Shown in pieces: positions 5,326-46,612 of a stretch of 64,000 nt of DNA (positions are counted from its first letter, which is position 1; the number at the start of each line of letters is the position of its first letter). The translations under genes were made by a program, and so were the position numbers. The notes beneath the pieces were generated by a model. That model had not been told where the DNA came from and searched no databases. It saw only the letters and a program-made list of their open reading frames with translations. The stretch is from Marisa cornuarietis. Its lineage: Eukaryota; Mollusca; Gastropoda; Architaenioglossa; Ampullariidae. The stretch covers positions 3,022,001-3,086,000 of the forward strand of contig SMMW01000619.1 of assembly GCA_004794655.1 (NCBI GenBank), in the 5' to 3' direction.

Positions 5326-7599
5326 ATGATAGTCAGTTGTATGACAGTTTGGGCCATGGTCGTCTTTCTACCCTGGACAGCACGTTCACAGCACCAAGGC
5401 GTTCCAGGTGAGTGGTTATTTGTTGTCTCTAAGACAGTGATAAATATAATTTTCAATAATATTAATATTTCATGTTTGCCATCCTAAAGACGCACTGAGA
5501 ATATAGTACAAAATTACATAGTAAAGAGTAATACATGTCAAGTATTCACAGTCTCTCTCTCTCTCTTACCTGAGCATCAAACGCCTCTTCTCTCCATCAC
5601 TATGACCAGAAGTATGACAACACCTCTCAAGTAAACCACTCTACAGGAAAATACAAACAAGACATCATACATCAAAATCCTATCTCGAAGCTCCCTTCCC
5701 TACCACAGACCATCCAATCTCCCTCGCTAACCCTCGTGATAAATGCCCGACATAACGAACACGGGGCACGTTGCCCCCAACCATACAAATACTGGAGAAC
5801 TGTTGTACTCAGGGTAGTGGCATGGCACTGGCAGGCGACTAGCAACAGACTAGGCTAGAGTTCATAGCATCTCTAGACTCCTTCACCTCCAAAAACAAAC
5901 TATTCTTGACCTACTAGCAAAGTTTCTCCAACACAAGTTGCCTTCCCAGCGTGGCTATGCAACATCGCAATGAAAAGATAGGGGAATAAAATGTACTTCT
6001 GTAACATGGCAGAATGCAAAAATAATACAAAAAACATCTGGAAAGCCATCGATATCCTAACAAGTAAATCTATATAACTACTCTCACGATCGCAATTTCT
6101 TCTAATGAACTAAACTCACACTTTGCCTCCGTTGGCAGCAGAGTTGTTACGAAGGATAAATCAAAAGAAAACAGACAAATTTGAAGGCTTCTGCAACTCG
6201 AGGTAAATTAAAACCACTCTCAACATTACCCTAATGAATTAATTATTTAATGTCTATAAAGTGTTTATACAGCTAAAGCAAACAAAGAACAGAGGGCCTG
6301 ACAACATGGACAACAAAATACTAAAACTCTCGGCACCAGTCACTTCAGAAATGCTGACCTACCCATACAACCTAAGTATTGGTAATTCCATTGACCAGTC
6401 TACTAAAAGATACAGATTATCTCAATTCATGTTGGAGAATCCTAAAAACTATCTGCCTCCATCAATTCTTGTATCACTCTCACATTCATACTCACCTCCA
6501 AATTTAAAAAACCAAATTTGAAGTTCGGAGTTCGACAAGGATCAGTCTTAGGTCTGGTTACACTAATGATGAGTGTCAGAACCCCTTATAGACAAATCAC
6601 GGGGCTGTATTTTATTTATTTAATTAGCGCCGATTTGATTGCACTCCTTTGAACGATTACGAGAGGCCTCATCGAAAGACCACAATCAGAGTCCCACAGG
6701 GTGGAAGAGTAATTCATGGTTGACTGAATACAGGGTGTGTACAATAGTCTCCGAAAGTGAGGATTTCAAAAGTGTTTTCTCCATAGTTTTCCATGTGGCT
6801 AGGGTCTGTTGGCACCAAGACATATTCTTATCCATAGATACACCTAGAAGCTTATGGCTTTGAACTTCTAGTATTGGTTGGGTACTTAGATTTTTTGAAA
6901 TGGAGCGGCTAGGTTTTGTCTCTTTGCCTGGTTGTTATAAACATAACTTCTGTTGTCTGAGGGTTGAGTGCCATGTGGTTTAGTTCAGTCCAGGACTGAA
7001 GCTCATCAGCAGTTTGTGACATGCATGTTGTGTCATCGGCAAACATTGCGAATGATTGGGAGATGAGAAGGGGAAGATCATATAAACAGACTAAAATACA
7101 ACAAAATTATTCTCATTTATAAAATACTCACAGGAAAAATGTGCTTAAGACTTTCTACATCATTTACCGTCAAAATAAGAGGGTCCCTCAAACTCAGTAC
7201 TCCTACTCCTAGTTTCGACATTCAAGCCTGAAATATCCAGGTAGACTTCAAGGAACAACCTTCGTTCACACCTTCAACAAACGGAATCAGGTGTAGACAA
7301 GTTCAAAGCAGGTCTCCCACAACATTTATATCAAACCCTTTGATCTTATACAGAGGCTTCACACTCAGCGTACACACCCACCAGTAACAACGAAAAGAGG
7401 GAATTAAACAACCTCCATCTTTATACGTGCACTCATTACCCTCATTAACTTTATCTTATTTTAATTACCACGTTTAATAGTCAAATTTTGTCTCAGTTTC
7501 CTGTCCTTAGATAGAGGGCTAGATGTAGAAAAGCATAACTTTTGCTTCTGTTACCCTAGAAAATAAAGATTTGTCATCTCTCTCTCTCTCTCTCTGTCT

Positions 7600-7639
<40 letters not shown>

Positions 7640-10165
7640 CACACAGCTACACACACACACACACATATGCGCGCACTACCTTAACATTAACATTTTTTCG
7701 TCTATTAAATAATAAAATATCTCGTGTTCTTTCTCTCTCTTTTTTTGTCTTTCTTTTTCTCGCTCAGTTATATCAATGAACATTAACCAAGAACGCGCTG
7801 GAGCACACTCACTCACACACAGTCATGCTGTTGTCATTTAGACTCTTGAAGTTCTATTAGCTTCCAACTCATGACTGTTGCTGCCTCTTGTAATTTTTAC
7901 ACAATCTATTATTGATATTCTCTGTTATTTTCCTGTGGTTCAGAAAATTCTACCTGTCTGGTGCGAGACGCAGGTGAAGAGCGAAATTCGTCCGTTGTTA
8001 CCTGTCGGTTCCCAATCAAAATTTCAAACTTCCGCGTAGACTTGTATCAAGAGAATGGTAAGAGGTTTTGTTGTTACTGTGGGTGTTTAGTATGACATGA
8101 TAGTAATGTAAACAAGTGCAGAAGACAGCCACTTATTTAACTAAGCCAAGCGTTTAAAATATTTCTAGAACATGTAAGAATGGCATTGTGTCTTACAACT
8201 GACAGAAGGCATTAACACAACTAACATTAACTAAAGACAATGGTAAACAACAACATAAATATGTTCCCTTGTCACAAAACAATTACATGTGCGCTCAAAA
8301 AAAAGCGAGCAAATACTTACAGAAAAAAGTAACTTCCATTGTAAAAATGATTTTGTAATTCTCTTACCTTTATTTTAATCGGCCGCCAGGTAACTAAACA
8401 TGTTGTGGACAAGTAATTTTGTTGCTCACGCAGCATTTTGTTTGACAGGGAGCTCACGTGACCCTGTCATCGTCTGCTCTCCATGCTATGTAGCAAAGGA
8501 GTTCTCTGGTCTCATCACACTCTTGTTCCCTGACAACCATACAGCAGACACCTGGTCATTTGAGGTTCTGGGGTCACGTGACACAGCAGGGCGGTACACG
8601 TGTCATGGCAGTCGATGGCTGGAAACCTTCCAGTCCCTGCCGTGTAGTGTCACTCTCACCCTGGAAGACAAAGCCAATGACACAGCCACCAAGAGCCTGA
8701 CAGAAGGTGGGTGTTCAATCAGTCGATGTCCACTACAAGCTTATAAAAAAAGGTAAAGGTCATCCCATAACCTGTTCAGGTCGTAGGGGAGTGAGGTGTT
8801 AGAGACCCCACTTTTCTCGGGGCCAGCTTTTACATGAGGGTGGTGCCAATCTCCTCTCCCTCACTGCCTTACCTTCCCCAACCCTCTATGGAGTCAGGTA
8901 CCCATTCCCGTCAGCTGTGTCAACTGGGGGAAGTTTGCTGCGCTTATCGGGAAGTGAACCAGCGCGCTCTCGGTTCGGACTCCAGCGCTCTAACCACTCG
9001 GCCATCCGCTTCCCTAAAGCTCCTACCAAGCTCCTACCAGTCGGCTGATATGCATCAGAACGGACTTGATATCTGTTAGGAAAGTGAATAATAACAGCTT
9101 TTAAATATCACTAATGACAAGGATACATGTAGCTAAACATAGGATCACATTTGTGATGAGCCGGAAGAAAAGTAAAAATTAAAAAAATTGTCAAAAACAA
9201 ACATAAATGTTAAAAGTAAACTCACTGCTGAGGCTTTTGTGTGGGTAACGACAAATAGAGAAATACTATTGTGTACAGATAATACAAGAAAACATTCGTG
9301 TAACTTTATAAAAAATGTCAAACAACATTCACAACTTCCTGGCTCTGTTGTCCCTTTATTAATGATTGTGATGTAAGTGTTGCTGAATTCGACAAATGAA
9401 CACAGGTGAAGAGAATATAAATGGTGCAGCTGAAGGACAGTTTGTTTTGGGTTTTTTCAGATAACAGTGGAGGTTCCAATGAAATACTTCTTTGGATCTT
9501 GATTCCAACTTTAAACCTTTTTCTCGTTGTCAGCTCCGTCACCATCTTGTGCTGCGTCCTGTACAGGTGAGTCTTGACATGAGCACTTGGAGAATAGTTG
9601 ACATGATGGTCCAGGGGAGGTGATACTTTTGCCTCATTGAAACTAACCTCCCGATCTCACTTACAAGGGACTCACAAAAACATTTAAAGAAAAATTTTAA
9701 TCCGACAAAAGAGCCTACAAAATAAAATTAGTCAGCAATGTTGAACCTTGAAGACAGGTACACAAATATATTAATGCAAAACAACTTAAGAGACTCTCTC
9801 TTTCTCTTTCTCGCTACCCGACTCATGCTCACTCACTCACTCACTCACTCACTCACTCACTCACTCACTCACTCACTCACTCACTCACTCACTCACTCAC
9901 TCACTCACTCACTCACATACACACACACACACACACACACGCACGCACGCACACGCACACACACACATTTCTTTCTTGATTCTTTACATGAGCGTATGTC
10001 TACTATTAGACGCAGTTCAATATTTGATATATTATGAATCCACCCATTATTAATATTTGTGTGACTTGATTGTTTAGGTGCCGACTGCTGAGCTGTATTC
10101 GTGAAACAACAGCATGCAAAGAACAGTATGCCTACCAAGCAGCATCTGGCAGCTCTTTATTTTGA
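5326..10165 (+). CDS. Gene A: short-tailed single-Ig membrane protein, five exons
   Basis: Coding exons are 5326-5407, 7944-8057, 8449-8706, 9461-9566 and 10078-10165, giving 215 residues with consistent phases 1-1-1-2. Exon 1 encodes a signal peptide (MIVSCMTVWAMVVFLPWTA, then RSQHQGVP). Exons 2 and 3 form one Ig-like domain: a B-strand Cys in SSVVTCRFP, a C strand FRVDLYQEN, a CSPC motif opening exon 3, and the F-strand signature DTAGRYTCHG. Four N-glycosylation sequons are visible (NST, NSS, NHT, NDT). Exon 4 is the membrane span (ILLWILIPTLNLFLVVSS...). The tail is only 28 residues, with CRLLSCIRETTACKEQYAY and no ITAM or ITIM. The start at 5326 was chosen over in-frame ATGs inside the GT repeat because it gives a clean signal peptide. 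Gene B is a clear paralogue with the same exon lengths. Ligand and function are unknown. Confidence 0.8.
5980..6545 (+). mobile_element. Decayed LINE reverse transcriptase fragment in gene A intron 1
   Basis: The open stretch from 6261 reads LKQTKNRGPDNMDNKILKLS, which matches the start of non-LTR reverse transcriptases (the K-x-PGPD-x-hh segment), then continues into a scrambled NYxPxSIL-type block. Stops and frameshifts break it on both sides. It is an old copy of a jockey- or CR1-like LINE in the sense direction of gene A. Confidence 0.6.
6640..7070 (-). mobile_element. Antisense LINE fragment with FADD motif
   Basis: On the minus strand the sequence near 7050 translates to AMFADDTTCMSQTADELQSW, which contains the reverse transcriptase catalytic FADD motif, followed by LNPQTTEVMFITTRQRDK. 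It then breaks with stops. It lies between two plus-strand LINE fragments, so either one element was inverted internally or a second one was inserted. Confidence 0.6.
7065..7430 (+). mobile_element. LINE 3' end relic
   Basis: Translation of the plus strand gives a broken C-terminal reverse transcriptase tail (RLKYNKIILIYKILTGKM, then a region resembling the usual conserved LINE carboxy end). It probably belongs to the same old element as the fragment at 5980-6545. Confidence 0.45.
7585..7670. repeat. CT / CA / TA compound microsatellite
   Basis: A run of CT, then CA, then AT, then CA dinucleotides sits about 270 bp before exon 2 of gene A. It is intronic and has no coding potential. Confidence 0.85.
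8765..9012 (-). mobile_element. tRNA-derived SINE, minus orientation
   Basis: The reverse complement of about 8945-9012 reads as a tRNA-like head: GGCCGAGTGGTTAGAGCGCT (A box) followed by GGTTCACTTCC (B box-like). A non-tRNA body follows (down to about 8765). The head resembles a serine or leucine tRNA, but the continuous repeat body and the second copy at 4070-4205 mark it as a SINE. It lies in intron 3 of gene A. Confidence 0.65.
9827..9966. repeat. CTCA tetranucleotide and CA microsatellite
   Basis: About twenty copies of CTCA are followed by CA and GCAC runs in intron 4 of gene A, ending about 110 bp before the last exon. Confidence 0.9.
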
Positions 10166-27217: not shown

Positions 27218-27259
<42 letters not shown>

Positions 27260-28020: not shown

Positions 28021-28021
28021 G

Positions 28022-28079
<58 letters not shown>

Positions 28080-28085: not shown

Positions 28086-28244
28086 TGTGCGTGAAGATGC
28101 ATGCGCGCGCTTGTGTGAGAAAAGGTCATCAATCGGTCAGTCTTCTTTCTCTCGTCTTTCTCCTTCCTTGGTGAAATCTTACTTACATGTGCAGCTTTAG
28201 TCAACAGCAAGATGTTACAGGTTATAATGTGATTCAGCATTCAA

Positions 28245-28376: not shown

Positions 28377-28460
28377 AATCAAAAATACAAACCTTGATAA
28401 AAGCCTGTCACATGTTAGGTGTGTGTTGGAGGGAATGTGAAATTAATGATGCGTGAAGCT

Positions 28461-28566
28461 TGATTTGACAATAACAGTGACAATGACTATAACAATAACA
28501 GTGACAATGACAATGACAATAACAGTGACAATGACAATGACAATGACAGTGACAATGACAATGACC
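28461..28566. repeat. GACAAT hexanucleotide repeat
   Basis: Imperfect tandem GACAAT and AACAGT units, absent at the matching place in unit 2. Confidence 0.85.
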
Positions 28567-28721
28567 AACTTTATTTGAATATGGGAATGTGCTCAAGTTC
28601 AACAGAGAATAAAATGAAAAAAATGAAAAAAGAAGTGGGCAAGTAACAATCATATCATATATAGGTGTATATATATATATATATAACTTACAAGAAGGAA
28701 ATCAAGTATGCACCTACAACA

Positions 28722-28722
<1 letters not shown>

Positions 28723-28788
<66 letters not shown>
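28723..28788. repeat. CA microsatellite
   Basis: About thirty-two CA dinucleotides, preceded by a TA run near 28665-28683. Confidence 0.95.
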
Positions 28789-28949
28789 ATTGACATTCAT
28801 CTAAGATTGAGCAGGTGAACTGCGGATGACACAAATGATGTCAGGTGTCTGTTACTCTTACATATAGGTATGGCATAGCGTGTACCTAAGCTTAATAATA
28901 CAAATTCTTTTGTTAATACATGTTCAGGTGATGATAAAATACATGAAGC

Positions 28950-29420
28950 TTTCCGTACTAATTGCTGGTCACAAAAAAGAAGCTAAATCCCTCTGTCTGA
29001 TACCAATTATCTTAGAAGAGATGTTCACAACACTGTTCAGACTGTTCCTATCATGGACAGAGAGATTGCGAAACCACCAGACAAATGAGAAAGATAGAAG
29101 ACTCTCAATGAATAACTGGTAACAGCGACCTAACATTACTTGACTGACTGAAAAACTATTTAATTTATGCAAAAGATACATTCTTTGTTGGTCACGTTTA
29201 ACAATGTGTTCGGTGTTTAAATTCCATTTGAGCTGACTATCAACAATAGTTCCCAGATACCTGAAGGAGTTAACAACTTCAACAGGTTTACTATGAATCA
29301 CACTGGGAATAACACAATCCTCTTTGGTCTTCCTAAAGTCTATAACTATTTCTTTAGGCTTATCTACATTCAACTCTACGTAGTTCTCATCGCACCACTG
29401 TACACAATTTGTTCAGGCAT
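28950..29420 (-). mobile_element. CR1/L2-like LINE 3' end
   Basis: The minus-strand open frame reads NVDKPKEIVIDFRKTKEDC, SFRYLGTIVDSQLKWNLNTE and QQRMYLLHKLNSFSVSQVML. This is the thumb and C-terminal region typical of CR1/L2 reverse transcriptases, including the F-x-Y-L-G motif. It is open for 134 codons, so it is a fairly young 5'-truncated copy. It is present in unit 1 only, so it inserted after the segmental duplication. Confidence 0.8.
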
Positions 29421-29950
29421 TACCATGATCTTTCCTATGTTCCTGTAAAAGAGTTGACAATGCTTTATTGAATCAACTAGACTTTTAAAGATGAGTAGAG
29501 AGTAGAGAGTTAAGACAAATTATGTCTTTTCTTCATTTTGTGATTGCTCTCAGAATTCATGTCCATCTAAAAGACATACACATCTGTGCACGTACACACA
29601 AATAGTTGCGCACGCTCACACAGATGGACACGTGGTGACAGATGCCACAAAACATCGGACAAGCTTACAGTTTATAGTTCAAGAGAGAAGATGAAAAGTG
29701 AATGCAGTATCCACCATTTCTACCGCCGCCGCCGCCACCACTACAGCGTCAACAACAATGTTTTGCCTCCTGCTCACCGGGAAAACCCACAGAGTGCAAG
29801 AAATATTGATTGTCTCGTCATGCCACTCACACCAGCTTCACCAGAAAGAAAGCGCAGCGCGCGTTGAGCCCCCCCCCCCTTTGTGTCTAGTCACCGGGGC
29901 TTACCCAGAAAATAGGCGACCTACACACACACATACACAGACCAATCCGT

Positions 29951-30071
29951 AGAGTATTTGCTTCTTGACAACAGGTAGACTACTGTAGGTTTTAGCTCTT
30001 GTTTTGTGTTCTGGTGGTTTGAAGTTCATTCTTGACGACTGAGCAGTGTTGTAGTACAGGAACTGTCAGCC
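29951..30071 (+). promoter_or_regulatory. Conserved upstream block of gene C
   Basis: The 110 bp before the start codon of gene C match the block before gene D (41465-41576) with only about four differences. It probably contains the promoter and 5' UTR. No TATA box at a standard position was seen. The block begins TTGACAACAGGTAGACTACT. Confidence 0.5.
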
Positions 30072-33000
30072 ATGTTGGTTACAACAATCTGTCTCCTACA
30101 ACTGTTTTCGCAGCTCCATCCTGCGAAGGGTGAGACCACAGGTAGGTGAGACCTTCATGTCTACTAATACCCGCTACAGATATGGATAAATAATCTCACC
30201 TGACACGAATTCTATTTCACACTGTGATAATATTGAGGTGATAGAGTAGGTCTAGTCTAGACTCGCTGGAAACATGTACAATATTTGTGAGAGGCCTGTG
30301 TGCACAACAACCCGCAGTTTAAGCCAGACATTGCTTTAAAATGTTTATTAAAAATACGTATGATGTTTTGATTGAGGTTGACCGCAACAGTATGTGTTGA
30401 GCGAACAGTGTTGTGACAGATGATTCATTTTTATCGGGACCCAGTGGGATTTGTAAGCAATGATATCTTGACTGCTCAACACACGGGGCAATAATAAGAC
30501 TTCTGCTCGAAACATGTTCCTGCATAGATAGCGCAGACCTGGCAAACAGACGAAGTAAAACAAAGAAAGTTCTCACCTGGTCTGGTTTGTAAATCATCGA
30601 GTTTCTAGAGATCATCATCATCACATACAAAACATTTACCAGTTTACCCGTTTCTGCAGACGGATAGATAGATGATAGGTTGACGAGAGATATTATAGAT
30701 AAGGGCAGAAGGGAAGTAAAAAAATGGAGGAAATCCTCCTAACATTATATTTACCTGCCCACCTGTTACTTCCAGGAGAACTACTAGAGTCTGTTGGGAA
30801 GCGAACACAAGGAGAAAGTTTTGACCAAATATCCTGCAGTTTCAACATAAACATCACCCTGTCACACGTGGACCTCGTTAATAAGACAGGTACCAATGTA
30901 TTGTCTGTATACAGTTCAAGAAGTGTTGAATAATTGTGTTATTGTCATCATGGTGTTAATATCATGAAGAACAGCTGTGGTACTGTAGTTACACAGTTAC
31001 TGTTGGTGTCAAGTAGTCAACAGTCAGAGGAACAATACGGAGGCAGGGACTAGTCCGTGACAATCATTATATAATCCACCTTGTGTAAACATGTCTTACA
31101 GTTAATATTGTGCTCAGTGATTGTGCTGCTGTAGTATTACAACTGTGCCAAAGCGGAAAGCAAGATGGTTAGAGTACTGGTGTCTGAACAAACATCTTTA
31201 ATGTCAACTTCTGTTTGGAGCTCACATCAGCAATACACTAAACAACATGCAGTCGCATCTCATAAACCCATACAACTACTACACTCTTAACCCCCCTCCT
31301 AACAATACACACACACACACACACACTAAAATATCACATGGTGACAGGGACGAACACCACTTCACATTGACGAGAAAAGTCATGTACGGCATCTCATCAT
31401 TTGGTTCAGTCCCAGCTATGCCCCCAGTGCATTTCCTCCCTTTAGTTTCACATCCCCCTTATTTTAATAGACAACAGCCTTTTCTGTCGAAATTCTTTGT
31501 TTCACCTTGCCCATATCATTCTGGACAGATGCACAGTTCTTGGCAACAAAGTCAGCTTTAAGGTCTTTGCTAATCCCTGGCTTATTGTTGCTAAGCCGCT
31601 TAATCGCTTTTGTTTCTACAACACAGTTCTCACAGAAGTGGATGTAGGCAGTTACAGTTCCTGGGAGTTCATCACAGACAGAACATCTGTCAAAGAACAG
31701 ATGCCCGTCCGTTGCCTCAAAGCAGCTACACAGTGATTCAGTCTCGTCATGTGACCACAGCTTAGTCTCTATAGTTTTTGGTTTAACGCTTTTCACCTTT
31801 CTGTCTGTATCCCGGGATGAGGTGAACCACGCTGCGTTCAGATCTGCCTAAGGGAGGCCTGCATCTGTTTGCATCAGCACTTGAGACAGAGCTCTAACAT
31901 TTGTCCAGCACACGGTTCTGTCGAGGGGGACAGCTAGCATGTTGAGGGCGATTCTTCGCTGAGATCACAATTATTAAAGTTGCTGAGAATAGAGGCAGCC
32001 TGATCGGTATATTTGTGGAAGGTTTTGATGTAACTAGATGCTATCTGTGCGGCGGTGCCCTTGATGTCAGGTCCGGGAACAAACACCAACATGACTGCCA
32101 CTGGTCCAGATTCATGTCTGATACGATTCAGTATTTGATATGACACAATGCTAGTTGTTTCAAGTACTGTCAACTCCTTGGCCCAGTTGTTATTAACGAA
32201 TGTACAAAGCCTTCCGCCTTTATTATTTTCTGTCTTCTCGCCATCTCTATCATGACTAACTCGTGAAACCCTCGAAGTGGATGTATATGTTGTTGCTATT
32301 CAGCCAGGTCTCTATATTACATATTAGACTGCTACAGCAACAGTCGCCGTCGTATTTAACCAGTGGGCGACTTCTGTCATCTTGTCAATGGAGTTGGCGA
32401 TGGTTAAGGTCGTCAGCGGCAACCTGACCCTCTTCCTTACCACTCCTCTAGATCCCCGCTTCTTCTTTGTTGTCTTTCTTCTCGTGTTGTCTCTGGTTTG
32501 TTGACTGTTAGGTGCCGTTGTGTACTCGGTCCAGTCAATGTGCAGTAAGTCATGTCCGGCGTGGTCTGGCGTGGAAAGGGAAAATCCCGTTGAAGCAGCG
32601 AGAATCTGGACATAGGAGTAGCAAAATATATTTAAATAAAATGAAGCTATCAATTCTTGCAGTCCTACACTACCAGGCACTGTTCAAAATACTCACTCCC
32701 CCTTCACTAAGATAAGAAGAAGTAAACAAAAAGTCGGAGCTCTCTCAACAGGGTCGAGTCGAGAAGAGTCGCGCCCCCTTTAAATATATACCCGTGCAAG
32801 TTAGTTAACATATTTTCGCTTGTGTAAAAATACCCGATGCCTGTGCAATCCAACAGGGTCAAAGGTTTTCGCCATCGTGGACTGTGGTACCAAATGCAAA
32901 GTTCTCAGCAACTACCAAGATGTCCTCCGTATCGTATCTCCAGAGAACACGAGTTTTGGCGACTACTTTGTCTTTAATGCCAAACACTCAGAGAAGACCA

Positions 33001-35546
33001 TCGGAAGGTACACGTGCCATGGAATTCATACACCCCAGGTGGCCTCCCCTCCCCCGTCAGGGAATGGCGATGGGGATGGCGATGGTGATGGCGATGAAAG
33101 TCAAAAGACATCAGTTCCACTGTCTGACACAGATGAGGCCTCACACAATGCTGGTGAGCGTGTCTTTCCTTTGTAACTAGTTGTCATAATAGTGGATGGT
33201 TCCTATCATGCATTGCCACTTTGGATTCCCCTTCCTCTTACCGTTATGTAGCCTTAGTTGCTGGTACGGCGTAAGCTCCAAACATTTTTCTCTATCTATC
33301 CATACAAAGTGGGTACTATATTATTGTACTATACTATAAATTATATATTCAATCTTTGATAAATATGACTTTCTATATCTGTACAGTAAATATATATATA
33401 AATCACATTTGGATAAGTAAAAACACACTTTTACTTTCCGATACTCTAAATAAGTTATGAATAAATATTTGTGGCCCTAACGAACCTTTATCTGTCTTTA
33501 AAGTTTCCCTTCACTTGTATCGACATATCAATAGTCAGTTAATTCCATTTCTGTGTTGCTGTAGGTGGAAACTTAAACGGACTATTTGCACTGTTTATAA
33601 TCCCCATCGTGGTGGTACCCATAGTAGTCATAAGCCTTTACAGGTAAGCCAGCATTATGTTTATCCAGTGTTTTAATCAGTATACTCTATCAACTATTTT
33701 GTTTTATTTTATGTGGTTTGATATTTATTTTATCGGAAGATGATATCTAATTACAGCTTGATCGATATTTTTTTAAATTTGGACGTTAAAAATACTTTCA
33801 GTTAAAGAGTAATATTCCACCTTCAGCTAAAAGACTTCCATACCATGGATATAATCTTTCTTCACACACACACGCACGCACGCACGCACGCACGCGCGCA
33901 CTCACTCACTCACTCACTCACTCACTCACTCACTCACTCACCTTCAGCTGCACGTCCACACTAACACATGTTCAGGAACTAGGTGTCTCTCACTTCTGGT
34001 TCTCATCAGAATCTTCCATTGCAGGCGAGGTGTGATTCGGATTCCATGTCGGAGGAAAACTGGAGGCAAATTCAAGAGCGATTTACCCTACCTCGTTGAG
34101 GAATCATTTGGCGACGATAGAAACGACGAGCGTAAAGACGGTGAAATGTTTGTTGTTAAAGAACAACAGCCATTATTGCGGGTTTCGTATAACAGCACCA
34201 AGCCCACACATGACAAAAATGTTTATGTCCAGGAGGGTCATACATTACCACAGTCTACACTTTCACCTGACAGCACCGAGCTCAAAGGTGACAACGGTGA
34301 TGCTGAAGAGCACCAGACATCACTACAATCTTCAGTTTTATCCAACAGCATCAAGTCCACAGACGTGGAACCGGTTGCCGCAGACCTAATTGCAGCAGCT
34401 TCGTCAGGTGGCGGCATTCAGCATAAAGGGGAGTCAGCTCCTACAGAAAGGCAGACATTAAAGCCACCTGTTCCGCCCAAAACGTACAAAGATCGTGACC
34501 AATTCAAGACCTCGCCAACCACGACCTTGACTACGGAACCGGGCAACGGAAAATTCCGAGACGTTACGAGTGACAGTTGCCTCCCTTCGCCACCTTCTTG
34601 GTCAGTAATTGACCATAAAAAGTCCGAGGATAATGCGACTGGCCGTCCTTCTCCGACCGTAAAACCAAAACCTTCCAGTGCAGAGAGTGGAAGCAACGTA
34701 GCAAAGATGCTTGCTCTTTTTGAAGAAAAAGAAAACACACAACATCATTCTGACGCCATGGGAGAAATAAAGCGAGGAGAAAACCAAAGCAAGAAGGGGC
34801 AGTTAAAAACAGCGCAAAATACAGAAGACAGGAAAGGAAACAAAGAGAAAGAAGGCGAGAGGGCACTGATCGACATGAAAGAGAAAGAAAGTAGTGAAGC
34901 AAAGTCAGAAACAAGAAACAATGACTACATGAAGGGCCAGTATACAACAGATGAAAATAAGGAAGACACGGGTGGAAACAAAGAAAGAGAAGACGAGAAA
35001 GCAAACGTTGAAATGGAAGAAAAAGAAATTATTAAAATACAGTCAGAGACAGAAAACAAGGAGGATGCAAGACAGAAACAGGAACAAATTAAAGAAACGA
35101 TGGCAGGAAAGGTTGAGCAAGAACACAAAGAAGAAGCAAAGATGGAAGTAGGGCATCCTCAAGAAGTGGAAGTAGAGTATCCTCAAGAAGTGGAAGTGGA
35201 TCATCCTCAAGAAGTGGAAGTGGAGCATCCTCAAGAAGTGGAAGTGGAGCATCCTCAAGAAGTGAAAGTAGAGCATCCTCAAGAAGTGGAAGCAGAGGCA
35301 GTGAGAGAACTTAAAGCAGACACGAGAGCAGAAACAGTGCAAACTAACGAAGAACTGGACAAAAATGGCCATAAAGACGACGGCGATGACGGCAATAGTA
35401 GTAGAGATGCTGAAGGCGCTGTTGCTGTTGATAAGTTGGATGGCGCAAGTTCTTCTGGGCAGAACTTAGTATACACCGACCAGCCTCTTCCTGAACACTC
35501 TCAGAAATGTTCTGAAGGCGAAAGGAAACCATTAGAAGTAAACTAA
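30072..35546 (+). CDS. Gene C: long-tailed single-Ig membrane protein, five exons
   Basis: Coding exons are 30072-30141, 30776-30889, 32857-33153, 33565-33643 and 34025-35546, giving 693 residues with phases 1-1-1-2. It starts with a signal peptide (MLVTTICLLQLFSQLHPAKG). The Ig domain has the B-strand FDQISCSFNINITLSHVDL, then FAIVDCGTKCKVLSNYQDVL with C-x3-C, and the F-strand TIGRYTCHG. A Pro/Gly-Asp stalk with five GD dipeptides follows, then a span (GLFALFIIPIVVVPIVVISL). The 506-residue tail carries an acidic dileucine sorting motif EQQPLL, an SH3-type KPPVPPKTYK, a long Lys/Glu-rich probably coiled or disordered region, and six 8-residue HPQEVEVE repeats. No kinase, TIR or death domain and no ITAM or ITIM is visible. 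Gene D is its duplicate. Role unknown; a cell-surface recognition receptor is an inference. Confidence 0.85.
31140..31215 (+). mobile_element. Degraded tRNA-SINE head in gene C intron 2
   Basis: The sequence AAGATGGTTAGAGTACTGGT followed by GTCTGAAC matches the SINE head at 43355-43432 in the same intron of gene D. It lost its B box. Insertion therefore predates the duplication of C and D. Confidence 0.5.
31464..32680 (-). mobile_element. CR1/L2-like LINE, 5' part, decayed
   Basis: Minus-strand pieces are: a basic N-terminal segment with RKTTKKKRGSRGVVRKRVRL (about 32440), an endonuclease piece IVSYQILNRIRHESGPVAVM (about 32090), and the pre-RT piece ETESLCSCFEATDGHLFFDR with RLSNNKPGISKDLKADF (about 31560-31740). 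Order and motifs match the LINE at 17380-18440. It lies in intron 2 of gene C and is missing from the short intron 2 of gene D, so it arrived after duplication or was lost from D. Confidence 0.75.
33236..33290 (+). mobile_element. SINE 3' module fragment
   Basis: The segment ATGTAGCCTTAGTTGCTGGT ACGGCGTAA matches the tail of the SINE at 14521-14694. It lies in intron 3 of gene C. Confidence 0.55.
33866..33941. repeat. CACG and CACT tetranucleotide repeats
   Basis: About seven CACG-type units followed by about ten CACT units in intron 4 of gene C, 80 bp before the tail exon. Confidence 0.9.
35151..35294 (+). repeat. In-frame 24-bp coding repeat in gene C tail, 6 copies
   Basis: Six 24-bp units encode GHPQEVEV, EYPQEVEV, DHPQEVEV, EHPQEVEV, EHPQEVKV and EHPQEVEA. 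The unit length is a multiple of three, so copy number changes keep the frame. Gene D has no such array at the matching place, so the expansion followed the C-D duplication. Confidence 0.95.
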
Positions 35547-36167
35547 AAGGCTTATCCAGTAAAATCAGTGAATATGAAAGAACAACAGCCTGGAGGTGTA
35601 AGGGAGAATACAACTGGCTGTCCTCAAGTAATCGCCACGTCACACAATCTGAGGGGACCTGGCAATGTATGGAGCACAGTATGACATGTCAGTGAGAAGT
35701 TTGACAAGACCAAGAAAGCCTGAACCACAGACACACAGAGCTCTGCTGTATTCTGATGAGTTTCTTGATGTCTAGGTTTCTATTATGTTGACCTTAGCTC
35801 CTCATCTGCCTTTAACTTCAACCTCCCGTGACGAGAAGGAAGCTGAACAAGATACTTATCTGGGAAAAGCGGGTCCTTTAGTCAACAACGGTCCGAACTG
35901 AATGACATTTGGGAGGTAACTGTGCAGAAGAGAACCATGAGATGTGTAGACATGTCAGCCAATTTCATTCCATCATTAATACTGGAGATGTGATAATTTG
36001 AACCTAGGGGGGATAAGGAAACAGAACTAATACAAACATCCTAGGACGTGAAAGCCAGAAAGCTGAGACTAAACATTAGCTCTTCGGCAAGTCTCCAGAC
36101 ATTGGCATTTAAATCTGAAGCCATTGGTCATGAACAAGACAGAAGAGACTATTCACTGACAAGACTA

Positions 36168-36173
36168 AATAAA
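36168..36173 (+). terminator. Candidate poly(A) signal of gene C
   Basis: AATAAA occurs 620 bp past the stop of gene C. In unit 2 the equivalent sequence is mutated (AATGAA, near 48148), while gene D has another AATAAA at 46720. Confidence 0.45.
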
Positions 36174-36219
36174 CTGTTCAAACTGAAGTGAGCAGGAAGG
36201 TGGACTGAGCCTCACTCTC

Positions 36220-38245: not shown

Positions 38246-38766
38246 TCCTCTCTATATATATATATACATAATTATATACACCATGTTTTCCATTTTCTTT
38301 AAAACCTCAAAATTAATAATTCTCGCAGGTTAACAGCACATAAACTAATAAACTTTCTCAGTGTGGGACGAGTAGATGTTTCACGAGGATAATGACGAGA
38401 AAATAGCATTAATATAATTAATATAAAAGAGAGATGTACAGACGATAGACAGGGTGAAATGCAAAGGTCACACTCATGAGGTTGACCCTGGTTTCTGATC
38501 AAATTTCAACTCTCTTGTCATGGGATGTCATTGCGAACCAACTTCCTTAGTCAAACAATTTGTTGTAGCTACTATCTTATCTTTCACTTTTATGTGTAGA
38601 CAAAGGAACAGACAGAAAATGGAAATAAAAACATCAGAGACAAGAGTTCCGGAAGACCGAGCTTATCTCACTTTAAAGGCCATGCTACTTTTCAGATGAT
38701 GATTCCGACAAAGGTACATCACTTGTCAATTGGACCTTTTCAAAGTTTAATTCTATCGTATCAGGT

Positions 38767-39504
38767 ATGGAAAAATGTATTTTGAATATGGTAGACAGAC
38801 TGCATTTAATGACGGTTGTCACTGTGTGGATAAGACAGTCTTTTCAACAACTCGCGGCTACATGTGCTTCCATCAAACCAGTGTTTTGTTGTTTTATTAA
38901 CCACCAGCATGTTTCCATCTTCATGGCTCCGTGTTCGACTGAGATGAGGCTGGAGGCGATGAGCGACAGTTTCTCGGCTGTTTACCTTCACATTGCTGAT
39001 GAATGTGTCTCTGCTTCGAGCATCTCGACTTTATTCTCTGTTCCAGTCTCAACAGTAACTTCACCCTCTCACTCGCTCAAGCTCTCGGATATTCCATCTT
39101 CCATCTCATCGTCGGTCGGTGTGCATATTGGTGTTCAGGATGATGACATCGCTAACGACGATGACAATGTTAATGAAGGGAACTGGTCTGCTAGGCTGCT
39201 GAATGTGAAAATCCATTGTGTACAATGTAGACAAAGTGCTTTAATATTAATGTTCTTCTTAACAGGACACGTTCGCACGGACACTTGGCTAACTTATGCA
39301 AAGTTTGTATATAACCGTCAAGTGAAAGTTCAATTTTCTTCTGTTAAAATGATTTTGACACAGTGCAGCCACAGAAATGTCATGAAGTTTGCATATAGAC
39401 AAGTTTTTCCGACATTTAGTGTTTTTTGCATCGATTATCAACATAACAAAAATTTAATGAAAGTCAGTACAACATGGACTGCAGTTAAACATCGTCGTTG
39501 CTGA
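38767..39504 (+). other. 245-codon open frame of unclear status
   Basis: The frame starts four bases after the exon 2 relic and is open to 39504. The outer parts are duplicated intron sequence with stops in unit 1. The middle (about 38885-39240), absent from unit 1, encodes a Ser-rich stretch (SVPVSTVTSPSHSLKLSDIP) and an acidic one (VQDDDIANDDDNVNEGNW). No domain, signal peptide or splice support was recognised. It may be a chance frame or a fragment of a retrocopied exon. Confidence 0.2.
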
Positions 39505-39749
39505 CTTTATGTTTAGAGACATACTGTGAGATGAGTCTTACCAGCAAGTTCAACAGCACTACCAAGATATGTCACTGTCGTGGCAATCACTGTATGAACT
39601 GAACTGGGAGGGGAACAAAATGTGGGGAGAGGAGGAGATAAGCGTGAGAACCTCGGGACTGAGTGAAGACATAAATAGCCTCCCTTGCCCACTAACAAAA
39701 CATTTATTCATGCTTTTGATAAAATGATAAGTGTGAAAGCGCGTACAAC

Positions 39750-39751
<2 letters not shown>

Positions 39752-39807
<56 letters not shown>
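39752..39807. repeat. GT microsatellite
   Basis: About twenty-eight GT dinucleotides. The matching place in unit 1 (27300-27350) has a shorter, interrupted run. Confidence 0.95.
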
Positions 39808-39808
<1 letters not shown>

Positions 39809-40744
39809 GACAGTTGTCTTTCTGTTAAGGAATACCAGGAAGGTAGTTTTAAATTTACCGTGTACACATTTTATTTGAATACATTATAACAGACCACTTC
39901 ATCAGCTCTCTCTTTAACGCTTACATCAATCAATGAAAAACAATTTTTGTTCCTTGGGTGACAGAAGAGACAATTAAGTACAGAAACACAGAGCAGAGAG
40001 TTGCAAGGACTCACCTCGCTCGTTGTTTCAGTTTTGAATGTAAAATATTTTGTATTTGCAGGACATTCGTCTGACATCATCCTAACCTGCTCCGGCCCTT
40101 GTGAAATGGCAGAACAGTTTGTAAACTTCATCACTTTGAGTTTTTCCGAGACAATGACAGGCAAACAAGAGGACAGTTGATGTCAAGAGGTCACCAATAA
40201 CAACATGGCTTTAGAGTGGGTTGAGTGTATTGTTAGACATTGTGTAACATCACTTACACTCCAGGTGATAACCTCGCAACTGTCACAGACCACCTGGTCA
40301 TTATATCAGACACATTCACCTCAGCTGACTTCTTTTGCTGTTGTTGTCGTTTTGTTGTTGTTTTTTTTTTTTTTTGCTTTTTGTTTTTTGCTCTAGTTTG
40401 AATCGTCTTATCAAAATAATATTGATATCTAATTGAGACTTTTTTCTTGACGAGTGGATGATATTCGTGATAAACAGCTGCAAGGAAACTGCACCAAATC
40501 TTGTACAGAACCAGGATTAAAAAGTTCAGAATATTCATATACAACATGAGACAAAAAGTTAAAAACATTAATTATATTAACTTTTTCATGCTACTATCGG
40601 GTGTATGTAAGTATTTATGTGTGTATGGCTGTGTGAGATTTGGTGTGTCTATGTGTTTGTTTGCTGTTGACTAAGCTGCACATTTTTAGAAATCTTACTG
40701 TCTCTAAAAATGTGCAGCTTAGTCAACAGCAAGATTTTACAGGT

Positions 40745-40892
40745 GAGTAATGTTGACAGCATTCAACTCAGCCTGATAACTGCCGCCTACACTCAGACCT
40801 CCCGTACAGTGCTAGAAGACATGAGGCTAAACACTGTATTCATAGGAGTGACTGTAACAAAAGTAGATGTGTATCTAAGCGATCGCCCGTGA
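40745..40892 (+). pseudogene. Possible further exon-2 relic, unit 2
   Basis: Open to a TGA at 40890-40892, with NTVFIGVTVTKVDVYLSDRP resembling the C-strand half of exon 2 (gene D VQVTLSRVDFLH). The unit 1 copy at 28245-28376 is disrupted. The donor is not in the family phase, so it is either decayed or unrelated. Confidence 0.3.
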
Positions 40893-41464
40893 AAGCAAAA
40901 CATAAAAAGTTGTATAAAAGCCTGTCACAAGCCAGGTGTGTGTAGCAGGGAATGTGAAGACAGTCGTTAATGATGCGTGAAGCTTGAATTCAATCAACTA
41001 GACTTTTAAAGACGAGTAGTGAGTTCAGACAAATGTCTTTCATTTCTTTTGTCATCGCTTTTCTGATTCATGTCCATCTAAAAGACATCTGTACACGCAC
41101 ACACTAATAGATGTGCACGCTCACACAGATAGACACACGGTGACAGATATCCACAAAACAGCAAACAAGATTACAGTTCAGGAGAGAAGTTGAAAAATGG
41201 ACGCAGTATCCATCATTGTCACCACCACCACCACCACCACCTCGTCACCAGCAACAATATTTTGTCACCTCTGCTCACCGGGAAACCCCACAGAGAGAAA
41301 ATCATTGATTTTGTATCGTCATTGATGGCTATCCCAGTCACACCAGCTTCGCCATAAAGAAAACGTGCGTTGAGCCACCCCTTTGTGAGTCTAGTCACCT
41401 GGATTTACCCGAACTGATAGACCTTTCCCAGAAAGTAGGCGACCTACATACATAGACAAATCGT

Positions 41465-41576
41465 AGGTCTTGACAACAGGTAGACTACTCTAGGTTTTAG
41501 CTCTTGCTTTGTGTTCTGGTGGTTTGAAGTTCATTCTTGACGACTGAGCAGTGTTATACTACAGGAACTGTCAGCC
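41465..41576 (+). promoter_or_regulatory. Conserved upstream block of gene D
   Basis: It is nearly identical to the block before gene C (29951-30071), so both genes are probably driven by the same ancestral promoter. Confidence 0.5.
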
Positions 41577-42158
41577 ATGTTGGTTACAACAATCTGTCTC
41601 CTACAACTGTTTTCCCAGCTTCAACCTGCGAGGGGTGAGACCACAGGTAGGTGAGACCTTCATGTCTACTAATGTCGCTAATGGCCGCTACAAACATGGA
41701 TCATCTCACCTGACACGAATTCTATTTAACAGTATGATAAAATTGAAGTGACAGAGCAGGTCGAGTCTAGGCTCGCTGGATAGATGTGCGATATTTGTGA
41801 GAGGCCAGTGTGCACAGCAACCCGCAGTTTAAGCCACACGCTGCCTTAAAATGTTTATTAAAAATGTGTTTAATATTTGGACCTTGAACTTGACTGTAGC
41901 AGTGTAGGCGTTAAGCGAGTAATGTTGTGTTATTATTCACTTTTATTGAGACTTAGTTTAACTTTTAAGCAGTGATAACTTGGGTGCTGAACATGCGGTA
42001 CATTAGTAAGACTTCGTGCCTACCTCACCCAGACCTCGCGAACAGACGGTGTAAAACAAGGATAGTTAATTTCCCTCGTGGTCTGATTCGTAAATCATCA
42101 AGTTTCTAGACATGTTTTAAGTGTCAACAGTCTAAACTACTTTGCTTGTGATACTGAA

Positions 42159-42201
<43 letters not shown>

Positions 42202-42730
42202 TAATAAAGGTCACTCGTATAGCGCATTATCCCTACCCTTTAGGTGCTTCACAAAAATAAATAAATAAATAAATAAATAAATTTTCACGGTACAATCTAT
42301 AGAAAACTCCTTGATATCCATATTTTCAGCTCTGTGGTCAGTCTCTTGATACGAGGTTGCTCGTTATTCCCTAAGAGTAGTTGCCACATGTCTTTTCATG
42401 GCCAAAAGAACCCGTATAGCAAGCTTCTTTACGGAAAAGTAACTGTTATCCTGCAGCACACCCTGTCTCACACCTGCGGTCATCGATGTTACACAGACTG
42501 GGTTCTGTGCAGGTGCCGCATGTGTTGTTGCAACTCATACCGTGGTACTAGCTCTGCAGGTCATTACAATAGCTTCCATGATATCCAGGAGTGCAGTCCA
42601 TTGAACATTCTCCTGTTACAATGTTGCATGTTGTTCCCCAGAGCAGTAGCACGTGCTGCTACAGTTGGGAACATACTTTACACTAGAGTAGCCCAAATCC
42701 TCCTCCTCCTCCTCCTCCTCCTCCTCCTCC

Positions 42731-42779
<49 letters not shown>

Positions 42780-44932
42780 GTGGACGGCTAGGTAGATGAT
42801 GGGATGACGAGCATGAGAAAGACAGAAAGGAAGAAAATCCTTCCAACATTTTATTTACCTGTCCATCTTTTACTTCCAGGAGAACTGATGGAGTCTGTTG
42901 GAAAACTAACACAGACAGGAAGCAATTACCAAATAACCTGCAGTTTCAACGTACAAGTCACCCTGTCCCGCGTTGACTTCCTTCATACATCCGGTACCCT
43001 TGTCCTGTCTTTACACAGTTACAGATGTGTTGAATGACTGTGTGATTGTCATCACAGTGTGCACGTCCAGAAGATCAGATTTGTTGCTGTGGTTATACGG
43101 TTTTATGTTGTGTGAACTATAGTTAACCTAGTATCGAAAAAATGTTGTCAAATAGTTAAAGTTATTTCCATATTGTCTTGTCAAACAGTGATAAATAGAT
43201 TCTATTGTCAGTATACAGTTAACATCGTCACGAATGTCTAATGCGCTGTGATATAGTTATCATTGGATTGAATGGATTGTTATGTCATGATATGATCAGC
43301 CTTGTGTAAACATGTTTTACAGTTAACTGTTTCTGTTGCTGTAGTCAAACAACTTTGTCGAGGTGGATAGCCAAGTGGTTAGAATACTGGTGTCCAAACT
43401 TTAAAGTCCGCTGGTTCGATTCCCGCGCAAAATATTTAAAAATTATTTTCTTGTTTAAAACTACCTGACACCTGTGCACTCCCACAGGATCACGCGTGTT
43501 CGCCATCGTGGACTGTGGCGGCTTTTGCAGAGTTCGCAGCACCTACCAAGATGTCCTCCACATAGAATCTCCAAAGAACACGATTTCCGGTGACTATTTT
43601 GTCTTCAGTGCCTTGCGCTCAGACAACACCACCGGAACTTACACGTGTCACGGAATTCCTATAACTCCGGTGGCCTCCCCTACTCCGCCAGGTACTGGCG
43701 ATGGCGCGGAAAATCAAAAGACATCAACTACGCCACCTGAGACAGATAAGGCCTCACATGATGCTGGTGAGATTGTTGTTGTTGTTGTTGTTGTTTTTAA
43801 ACTATTTTCATAAAAGGAGTGGATGGTTCCTATCGTGCGTTGGGGCCCCGGCTTCCCCTAGTGTACTTTACTATAAAGCTCTATCTTCAATCATATAAAT
43901 ATGACTATAAATATATTTCCTATTTTGATAAGTATTTTTCACTTAATTACTCTTGCTCATTCCTTAATTCCAAAGAAATTCATATTCATACACTTTAAAT
44001 TCCTATGCCCTGTATAAATTGCATATAAATAATTGTGTTCCACAGGAACCAGAATCAAGAACTTTTTTCTTGATTGTCTCCCTTCACTTGTTGTAGCTGT
44101 GCTGCAGACACTGCAGTCCACACAATGCTCGTCCTTCTTACCCTCCCCTCCTCTGCTCTTGCTAATTTTCTACCATCTTTCTCTACAGAATCACTATATT
44201 TTCTATGTTCTGTTACTTGGTGTGCTTTTGTGTTTTCCATCTTTGTTTTTCTGTTTGTCGTCAGTATTGTCGTTTATTCTTACGACCTCGTGTTCTGTCC
44301 ATGTAGTCCATGTCTCTTCCTTGTTTTAAGTGCTAAGAGCATGCTCTCTATGAGTGTGAATATGCGCTATACAAATCTTCATTATTATTATTATTATTAC
44401 TTGTTAAAATGTCAACACAAGCTGATGCCCCATATAATATGCACACATAGATTCGCAAGAAGACAGCCAAAGAATCAGATAAGCTGACAGTCTGATAATT
44501 TCAACCGCTATCCCACCCAGCATATCAGACAGCCGATCAGCCAGATACCTTGTCCTCTAACAAGCAAGTCCATATATCAATAGTAAAGTCAATTTTATTT
44601 CTGTGTGGCTGTAGGTGGAAGTGGTAACGGACTACTTGCACTACTAATAATCCCCATCCTATTGGTACTAGCAGGAGTAGTCTTATTCCTTCTTTACAGG
44701 TAAGTAAGCATTATAATTACATAGATTTTATGAGTGTACTGTATTTTAAGTATTTTGTCTTTATTTTTTGTGGTCTGACATTTATTTTTCCTGGAGATCA
44801 TGTCTAATTACTGATAGATCGGCTTTTCATAAAGACATTTAAAAGGCTATTAAAGAGTAGCAATCACACCTTCAGCTAAGTGTTTTTTGCCATGGACATA
44901 ACATTTCTTTTTTCGCAGCCATTCTTCGAGAT

Positions 44933-44973
<41 letters not shown>

Positions 44974-46612
44974 ACACATACACTTCCTTCAAAGGCACAC
45001 GCACACTAACACATGCTTAGTTACAGGGCGTCTGTTGCTGAAGCTTCAGTTTCTAATCAGAATCTTCTCCTACAGGCGAGGAGTGATCAAGATTCCATGT
45101 TTGAGAAAAAATGGACGAGACCGACAACAACCATTTGACCTGATGGATACCCTGTGGAATCTGCTGCAGCCTGTCACTCGTTGTTGGACAAGGATACGTC
45201 ACCACAGTCAATCGACTCAGGAGGATCATGAGACTACAAACCAGGATGAAGAACATGTCAGATATGAAGACAAAGAGATTCGTGAGATTTTCGTACATCA
45301 CCGGCCCGCAGAGCGGTCTCCCCTGTTAGGTAAAGTCGGTAGTGACGAGAGTAAAGAGGAAAATACTGACAGCAAAGAGCACCAAGCACTGATTCGTGAT
45401 TCATCCATCAGGTTCGAACCCACACAGGAGGAAAATATTGGTGTTGAGGAGCGACAGCCATTACAAGAATCTTCTCCCTTATCTAGCAGCACTAAAGCCA
45501 AAAATGAAAATGGTGGTGTTGAGGAAGGTCAGGTATCATCGAATTCTTCACTAATATCTAACAGCATTGAGGTCGAAGATGAAAACGGTGGTACTGAAGA
45601 ACTTCCGGCATTACCGGAATCACGAGCGGCGTCTTTGTCACGTGATGTCATTGCGTGTAAAGATGAGTCAGCTGATTCAACAAGACAAACATTTGCATCA
45701 GGGTTACAGTCTCATGGGACAAGAGCATCAGGAGACCGACCTGCTGCTCCGCCCAGAAGCCGTCCATCGCACGGTAATGTACTCAGAGGTACTAATGTGC
45801 CACCTTACTCGACCTTTTCTACACCATCGCACGGCAAAGACCTCCAAGATGATAGGAGTGACAGTACTTTTCCCTTGCAATCTCCTCTTTCAGTAACTGG
45901 CCATGGAAAGCCCGAAGATGAGAATGATGACATAGACCTTTCTTCTTCAACTTCACCAAAACCTCGCAATGCAGAGAAAAAAAATATTCGTCAACTTGGG
46001 GTCAGCGTGCAGCAAACACCAAACATCGCCGACTCCAAGGTAGAGACAGAAGGAGGGGAAATCAAGGACATAAACCATCAGTCAAATACAGAAAGAAATA
46101 AAGAAGAAGTAAAAGAAAAAGAAGAGAGAGAAGGCGAGAGGACAAAGGTTGAAATGGAAGAAAGAGGAAGCAAGGAAGCAAAGTCAGAGACAGAAAACAA
46201 TGAGAATACAAAATTGAAACAGGAGCGAGGTGGAGAAACAATGGCGGCAAAGGCTGAGAGAGAACACCAAGAAGAAGCAGCGTTGAAAATGGAAAATACT
46301 AAAGAATTGAACGCAGTGGAAGATAAAAAACAGAGTAAAGACATGACAACAGAAACTAAAGAAGAACTGGCGGCAAATGTCAACAAAGAAGAAGATAGTG
46401 ACAGTGATCAAAGTAGTAGTGGTTCTTCTGATGATGTTGATAGCGCTGCTGGCACAAGTCTTTCTTTCCAGCCTCTTACTGGTACTGGTGCAGCCTCTGC
46501 TGATGACACGCCGGAGCTTCCTCAGAAGAGAAACACAATACAAAGACTGAGCTCCAAGCTAAGCGGAATAACCAGCCTTTACACCACCGACAATGACGAT
46601 GTGAATGTGTAA
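41577..46612 (+). CDS. Gene D: long-tailed single-Ig membrane protein, five exons
   Basis: Coding exons are 41577-41646, 42880-42993, 43488-43766, 44615-44699 and 45076-46612, giving 694 residues with phases 1-1-1-2. The signal peptide differs from gene C at two residues. The Ig part has YQITCSFNVQVTLSRVDFLH, then FAIVDCGGFCRVRSTYQDVL (C-x3-C) and the F-strand TTGTYTCHG. A Pro/Thr stalk and a span (LLALLIIPILLVLAGVVLFL) follow. The 511-residue tail has an extra amphipathic piece near its start (PFDLMDTLWNLLQPVTRCW), the acidic dileucine ERSPLL, the proline motif RPAAPPRSRPSHG, and a Lys/Glu-rich region. It lacks the HPQEV repeats of gene C. Exon 2 differs from gene C at 16 of 38 residues although flanks are about 95% identical. 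It converges with the lectin gene E. Function unknown. Confidence 0.85.
42160..42285. repeat. ATA and AAAT microsatellites around a retroelement end
   Basis: An ATA run at about 42158-42201 and an AAAT run at about 42255-42284 enclose GTCACTCGTATAGCGCATTA, related to the repeat at 15040-15115. It lies in intron 1 of gene D. Confidence 0.85.
42697..42777. repeat. CTC and ATC trinucleotide repeat
   Basis: About eleven CTC units run directly into about fifteen ATC units in intron 1 of gene D, 100 bp before exon 2. Poly-Leu, poly-Ile and poly-Asp frames here are artefacts. Confidence 0.95.
43355..43432 (+). mobile_element. tRNA-derived SINE head in gene D intron 2
   Basis: GGATAGCCAAGTGGTTAGAA (A box) and CTGGTTCGATTCCCGCGC (B box) lie at tRNA spacing, directly before exon 3. 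The homologous place in gene C holds a decayed copy (31140-31215). No acceptor stem pairing and no tail were found, so it is not a tRNA gene. Confidence 0.65.
44075..44400 (+). mobile_element. SINE-like element with ATT tail, copy 1
   Basis: A roughly 320-bp element runs from CACACAATGCTCGTCCTTCT to ATGCGCTATACAAATCTTCA and an ATT repeat. Two more copies lie at 53985-54285 (+) and 59460-59775 (-). It is in intron 3 of gene D and absent from gene C, so it inserted after duplication. A GTG..GCGCTATA..ATT end is typical of LINE-derived 3' tails in invertebrates. Confidence 0.7.
44936..44970. repeat. CA microsatellite
   Basis: About seventeen CA dinucleotides in intron 4 of gene D. Confidence 0.9.

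Follow-up and report, generated by a model that had tools for sequence, protein, structure and literature searches.

Five related genes for putative single-pass receptors, four of them in a tandem array, in the apple snail Marisa cornuarietis

What kind of proteins are encoded by four neighboring genes that share one exon plan and end in cytoplasmic tails of 28 to 511 residues, and what might these proteins do? The question is raised by a stretch of 64,000 nucleotides (the window) from the apple snail Marisa cornuarietis (GCA_004794655.1, contig SMMW01000619.1, positions 3,022,001 to 3,086,000 of the forward strand), in which the four single-pass genes A, B, C, and D lie within 41 kb. The original prediction, made from the sequence alone, had described them as an unnamed tandem family of membrane proteins with a single immunoglobulin (Ig)-like domain. 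A–D are one homologous tandem family of single-pass mollusc proteins. Judged by their sequences, A–D and a fifth gene, E, are an undescribed small family of putative single-pass receptors, detected so far only in apple snails.

The gene models of A–D were rebuilt from the window sequence using explicit splice sites, and all four genes are on the plus strand. Gene A (5326..10165; exons 5326-5407, 7944-8057, 8449-8706, 9461-9566, and 10078-10165) encodes 215 residues with a signal peptide, an Ig-like domain with a phase-1 split, one membrane span, and a 28-residue exon-5 tail. Gene B (21730..24207; exons 21730-21808, 22327-22440, 22916-23158, 23527-23629, and 24009-24207) encodes 245 residues on the same plan, with a GC-AG first intron and a 65-residue exon-5 tail. 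Gene C (30072..35546; exons 30072-30141, 30776-30889, 32857-33153, 33565-33643, and 34025-35546; 693 residues) joins the ectodomain plan of A and B to a charged 506-residue tail bearing EQQPLL dileucine-type and PPVPPK SH3-type motifs, and gene D (41577..46612; exons 41577-41646, 42880-42993, 43488-43766, 44615-44699, and 45076-46612; 694 residues) is a duplicate of C with a 511-residue tail bearing ERSPLL and PAAPPR.

Splicing of the window reproduced in all four genes the predicted five coding exons, intron phases 1-1-1-2, and exon 2 of 114 nt, with every frame closed. GT-AG borders were found in 15 of the 16 introns, the exception being the GC donor of the first intron of B, which occupies the same place as the GT donor of A. 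Exon 3 measures 258, 243, 297, and 279 nt in A, B, C, and D, respectively, and exon 5 is the most variable exon. The C-x2-C motif of A and B, its C-x3-C form in C and D, the G-x-Y-T-C-[HY]-G signature, and the one membrane span are all present as predicted. By hydropathy, each protein contains one strong membrane segment, besides the signal peptide of A. On either side of it, B, C, and D have over 50 residues, the length expected in single-pass proteins of the Biomphalaria PTC1 cluster (see below); A has 37 residues after the scored span. A signal peptide had been proposed for all four proteins; the 19-residue hydropathy threshold was passed by A only, and the signal peptides of B–D were judged by eye.

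Two arms can be distinguished within the family. The ectodomains share 55 of 144 aligned residues between A and B, 102 of 154 between C and D, and 33 to 40 of 138 to 147 across the arms. The likeness of the arms is not due to chance, because alignment of the A/B profile with the C/D profile (hhalign) gave a probability of 97.9% and an E-value of 3.9e-13 over 86 columns. In the conservation alignment of eight sequences (A–D and the Pomacea canaliculata proteins P0001 and P0005–P0007), four ectodomain cysteines, a phenylalanine two residues after the first of them, and the motif G-x-Y-T-C-x-G are invariant; P0002–P0004, which are open reading frames running into introns, were excluded from alignments and trees. 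No Pfam family was found above its cut-off in the eight members scanned (A and B over their whole length, C and D over their first 258 and 220 residues), and in NCBIfam no family was found for B, P0001, P0005, or P0009, the proteins compared with it. The homology proposed for the tandem genes is thus upheld by the profile alignment of the arms.

How large is the family? In a search of the genome (534,278,870 bases in 572 contigs), exon 3 of C matched C, D, B, A, and, weakly, a place on another contig, C530 (E-value 0.5), which proved to be a true fifth member, gene E (locus L025). Gene E has an exon 2 of 135 nt (138 nt with the upstream one of two adjacent AGs as acceptor), an exon 3 of 237 nt, an exon 4 of 154 nt with a membrane span, and an exon 5 of 163 nt encoding a 53-residue tail with ENNHLL; phases 1, 1, and 2 are seen at three junctions, and the first exon lies outside the L025 locus. 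The fixed exon plan therefore stands for A–D, and E keeps the phases but has the longer exon 2. The four cysteines and the invariant phenylalanine are retained in E, and the F-strand motif reads G-S-F-M-C, the tyrosine being lost. Against the hidden Markov model (HMM) of the family, E scored 67.6 bits, whereas none of 300 shuffles exceeded 7.6 and none of seven real Ig domains exceeded 8.7; against the A/B HMM it scored 63.3 bits (best shuffle 11.8). Searched back against the genome, exon 3 of E found no place other than E, B, C, A, and D. Each of these family-size searches used a single exon (exon 3 of C or of E), and the five candidates passing the first look in each were all scored. No further members were detected by tblastn (E-value up to 0.05) within 60 kb on either side. 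Five members were thus detected, four in the array and one dispersed, and a large repertoire is rejected, since both exon searches yielded A–E only.

All named database matches of A, D, and the family profile belong to Pomacea. The best match of A is P. canaliculata LOC112572753 (P0001), with 80% identity over the full length. Residues 1-230 of D match three long P. canaliculata proteins, P0005 (658 residues), P0006 (805 residues), and P0007 (552 residues), and the family profile adds P0008 (180 residues, an isoform of LOC112571810) and P0009 (481 residues, LOC112571931). Candidates passing numbered 4 of 77, 3 of 3859, and 6 of 4412 in the searches with A, D, and the profile, respectively; the searches require shared five-residue words, so that distant homologs may escape them, and with these three queries no Pomacea partner of B turned up. 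P0005–P0009 are probably located on one chromosome-scale sequence. P0005 and P0006 are publicly named "glutamic acid-rich protein-like" and "protein IWS1 homolog", misleading names that hide the receptor ectodomain, probably because the tails dominate similarity searches. The shared ectodomain instead singles out a small set of candidate surface receptors, comprising five genes in M. cornuarietis and at least five Pomacea proteins. Apple snails are invasive pests and parasite hosts.

In a tree of ten sequences, A grouped with P0001 (support 100/99) and B joined this pair (100/100); P0005–P0008 formed a clade of their own (99/99), to which neither C nor D belongs, with P0009 outside, and the forks placing D (90/90) and C (88/86) were weaker. 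When E was added and P0008, a near copy of P0006, was dropped, the clade of P0005–P0007 held (98/98); because E sits with A/B on a long branch, its placement is unsure. Pomacea has four or more C/D-type proteins, and three of them group apart from C and D, indicating that the C/D arm turns over quickly. Most likely, as far as these sequences tell, A represents a conserved arm with a one-to-one Pomacea partner and the C/D genes a fast-turning one. The ratio of nonsynonymous to synonymous divergence (dN/dS, NG86) between C and D is 0.66 overall, 0.49 in the Ig-like part, and 0.65 in the tail. The divergence of C and D is fast, yet without positive selection on average, which is rejected by ratios below one. 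In a 15-codon window (codons 71–85), chosen post hoc and small, the nonsynonymous proportion pN is 0.22 and the synonymous proportion pS is 0.13.

Genes C and D lie in two collinear duplicated units on the plus strand, unit 1 (25752..36218) with relic 1 and gene C and unit 2 (38282..48197) with relic 2 and gene D. Relic 1 (27535..27790, end approximate), upstream of C, is a dead A/B-type exon 3 with frameshifts and stops, and relic 2 (40062..40320, end approximate) is its counterpart upstream of D. The relics are 96% identical, both are broken, and both lack the stretch for the F-strand tyrosine and cysteine; given this common deletion, the exon most simply died before the duplication. Counting only columns with a local identity of at least 0.6, the units are 83% identical in the upstream flanks, 96.5% in the relic, 94% in exon 1, 74.5–80% in the introns, 71–78% in exons 2–4, 69% in exon 5, and 78% in the 3' flank; unfiltered, C–D identity is 61–72% in the introns versus 83% over 610 bases upstream. 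This uneven divergence would be explained equally if the gene bodies predate the flanks or if exchange has homogenized the flanks. For the relics, 96% identical within surroundings of about 83%, gene conversion and hidden constraint are options. C and D are also almost identical just before the ATG.

Is the ectodomain an Ig fold? We regard a V-type Ig domain as probable. The spacing from the B-strand to the F-strand cysteine is 69–71 in A–D, within the V-set range of about 65–75, and the tyrosine-corner motif G-x-Y-T-C, replaced by G-S-F-M-C in E, is invariant in the eight aligned sequences. In a phmmer comparison, A aligned with the polymeric immunoglobulin receptor (pIgR) at a whole-protein E-value of 1.5e-5, summed over repeats, with a best single-domain i-Evalue of 1.7; of the five pIgR stretches matched, three are in register from the B to the F strand, one is half-covered, and one is out of register. 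Homology of A to pIgR is not upheld, as no single domain is significant and the match was not repeated by B, C, P0001, P0009, E, or the family profile. Aligned by hhalign with seven Ig domains of the same genome, the family scored 20.8, compared with 17.6 for the best of 60 column shuffles, at a probability of 7% over 23 columns around the F strand; these seven domains had been picked from loci L001–L008 by a pattern including D-x-G-x-Y-x-C, and a match at the F strand is therefore favored.

That the ectodomain is some other small disulfide-rich beta domain appears doubtful, although several results would fit it. No scanned member matched a Pfam Ig model, the profile match to real Ig domains is confined to some 20 columns around the F strand at that low probability, and a strand-C tryptophan is absent between the B-strand cysteine and the exon-3 cysteine pair in every aligned sequence and in E. 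AlphaFold models were of low confidence (means 52.8 and 45.6), and the lists returned by fold searches mix low-scoring beta-sandwich and antibody chains with unrelated entries. Against a non-Ig domain stand the cysteine spacing with G-x-Y-T-C, the B-to-F register in three of the five pIgR stretches, and the hhalign score above all column shuffles. The Ig-like domain of the original prediction therefore keeps its spacing, corner motif, and pIgR register and lacks a Pfam match, and the structure prediction that had been proposed for it yielded models too weak for a fold claim. A whole-genome search with PF00047 gave no match on the window's contig among the matches listed (150 of 518 candidates scored), which is a weak test, because the V domain of a neighboring gene for a FREP (fibrinogen-related protein, with Ig superfamily domains) was missed too.

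The tails of C and D are related (31% identity over 369 residues). The tails of A, B, and C/D had been called unrelated; this holds for A, whose best match spans seven residues (E-value 0.67), but B and D show a weak match (E-value 6.5e-4, without composition correction). Six long tails were scored (C, D, P0005, P0006, P0007, and P0009). They are rich in charged residues, and [DE]xxPLL occurs in five of them (C, D, P0005, twice in P0006, and P0007), P0009 having DEEALL; most PLL motifs fall in one column of the tail alignment. The SH3-type motif PxxPx[K/R] is found in four of the six, and the B tail contains two [KR]xxPxxP. Two long tails carry LVYTDL or LLYTDL, which resemble an immunoreceptor tyrosine-based inhibitory motif (ITIM); signaling through an ITIM is rejected, as the motif is not above chance (P ~0.28 per tail). 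Such short motifs suggest sorting and adaptor binding, and no more. An in-frame HPQEVEVE repeat (35143-35300) lies in the tail exon of C, opposite a gap in the D and Pomacea rows of the alignment.

On balance, and with about even confidence, A–E may be read as type-I single-pass surface receptors of apple snails, probably acting in recognition or scavenging, with endocytic tails in the C/D type. The outer part would be a small Ig domain, probably of V type, that is held by disulfide bonds, has an additional conserved cysteine pair at the start of exon 3, and sits on a short stalk; a single helix would anchor the receptor, and exon 5 would supply a subtype-specific tail. The ectodomain would bind a foreign or self ligand, and the long C/D-type tail could couple binding to uptake via sorting motifs of the dileucine type ([DE]xxPLL) and to adaptors via SH3-type motifs (PxxPx[K/R]). 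Haemocytes or barrier cells would be the most likely place for such recognition or scavenging, and a role in immune recognition may reasonably be proposed. Several results weigh against this reading. Only five members were detected in the genome, and C–D dN/dS is below one in every region (0.32–0.78). No Pfam Ig model matched the ectodomains of A–D, P0007, P0009, or E (E-value up to 10), or the eight aligned members (E-value up to 1). As to the tails, the motifs are short; five of the six show no enrichment of the general [DE]xxxL[LI] (shuffle P >0.05), P0006 and P0009 are without PxxPx[K/R], and ERSPLL of D lies outside the common PLL column.

Alternatively, the genes may encode cell-adhesion or developmental surface proteins without an immune role, the tails being scaffolds and the turnover ordinary drift of tandem duplicates. 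This is possible but on the unlikely side: the small family of five, the C–D dN/dS below one, SH3-type motifs typical of scaffolds, and the one-to-one relation of A between Marisa and Pomacea agree with it, whereas a separate C/D-type amplification in Pomacea and an ectodomain changing as rapidly as that of C and D would be unusual for core adhesion genes, and the word-based database searches found no named homolog outside Pomacea. A bolder version of the receptor reading seems unlikely, namely that apple snails have in this locus their equivalent of a polymorphic recognition cluster, in which C and D would be repeatedly re-made by duplication and exchange and one ectodomain wired to alternative uptake or signaling tails. 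C and D differ more in their gene bodies than in the upstream flanks, and the relics between are 96% identical, which would fit such remaking. The recognition-receptor cluster of the original prediction stays a proposal, with which the separate Pomacea amplification and the neighboring FREP agree, but not the C–D dN/dS of 0.49 (Ig-like part) and 0.66 (overall) or the five members detected. In vertebrates, paired Ig receptors turn the same ligand into different signals; a similar system here, with short (A, B, and E) and long (C/D) tails on one ectodomain, is improbable, as the shared ectodomain plan, the exon-5 tails of 28, 65, 53, 506, and 511 residues (A, B, E, C, and D), and the ITIM-like motif in two of six long tails are offset by the chance-level frequency of that motif and its absence from C and D.

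Returning to A–E as recognition or scavenging receptors, the nearest described parallels are gene clusters of Biomphalaria. The PTC1/GRC cluster of B. glabrata encodes seven proteins that cross the membrane once and have beta-rich ectodomains; FN3 domains occur in four or more of the seven, and most of the seven show 5–10% nonsynonymous divergence among alleles (PMC4361660). PTC2 is a further cluster of single-pass genes (PMC7494358), and in B. sudanica further clusters were described, in which some genes have Ig domains only and several have TMEM154 (PMC10875847). The apple-snail family resembles PTC1/GRC, PTC2, and the Ig-only single-pass clusters in being clustered, lineage-duplicated, single-pass, and poor in database matches. 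The TMEM154 model, which is also found in PTC1 genes (PMC10875847), weakly matched the membrane region of A, B, and one more of the eight aligned members (best E-value 0.0013, 19 bits, below the Pfam cut-off of 30.3). Unlike A–E, most PTC1 genes have FN3 domains (PMC4361660), and the likeness is one of description, not of sequence comparison. On the reading preferred here, A–E work like the Biomphalaria clusters, to which they may or may not be related. As far as the sequence family goes, the claim that no named molluscan family has this plan stands; as a kind, clusters of single-pass receptors, some with Ig domains only, have been described in Biomphalaria (PMC10875847, PMC7494358, PMC4361660).

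The V domains of pIgR and CD300 resemble the ectodomain in that A aligns with pIgR over the whole protein, and differ from it in that no single domain matches significantly. The Alr allorecognition genes of Hydractinia form a cluster of membrane proteins of an unusual Ig superfamily type. Forty Alr and Alr-like genes, some of them potential pseudogenes, are reported on chromosome 3 (PMC11876637). Unlike A–E, this cnidarian system is far larger, polymorphic, and thought to be homophilic, and it is likened here by description only. A review of apple snail immunity mentions Ig-bearing lectins in three passages, which contain nothing on the A–E family (PMC9178244). In the open-licence literature searched, none of the titles and abstract openings listed described the family, and LOC112572753, LOC112571808, LOC112571809, and LOC112571810 are mentioned in no paper.

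A FREP gene (50473..61313, minus strand), a neighbor and not a family member, lies 4 kb downstream of D and is open from its Ig domain to the stop, with Pfam matches to V-set (28.1 bits, cut-off 26) and fibrinogen (1.4e-69). Like A–D, which are probably V-type too, it encodes a gastropod V-type Ig protein with the Ig domain split by a phase-1 intron, after the strand-C segment; phase-1 splits are common in Ig genes. Unlike FREPs, A–D are membrane-anchored, and scans of A and B over their full length and of the first 258 and 220 residues of C and D showed no fibrinogen domain. FREP identity, as described for these proteins (PMC7588048), is excluded because the scanned parts contain no fibrinogen domain. 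Descent of A–D from the FREP V domain was rejected as well, being without sequence support (hhalign probability 0.13%, not significant).

Other features of the region include a LINE (long interspersed nuclear element) reverse-transcriptase frame (56780-59449) within an intron of the FREP gene, and an open frame that resembles hAT-family transposases and contains a Spin-doc zinc finger by Pfam (61716-63611, minus strand). Just outside the window, a FREP-like Ig half-domain fragment (L015, window +66684-66833, 58% identical) represents a second FREP copy or a relic. Three similar 24-nt mini-exon-like segments (~1390, 1830, and 2455, plus strand), noted by eye, could encode the repeated stalk of a gene starting upstream. 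Elsewhere in the genome, dense clusters of Ig-domain exons (PF00047) were observed on contigs C389, C498, and C71, many of them in C389:5.02-5.08 Mb.

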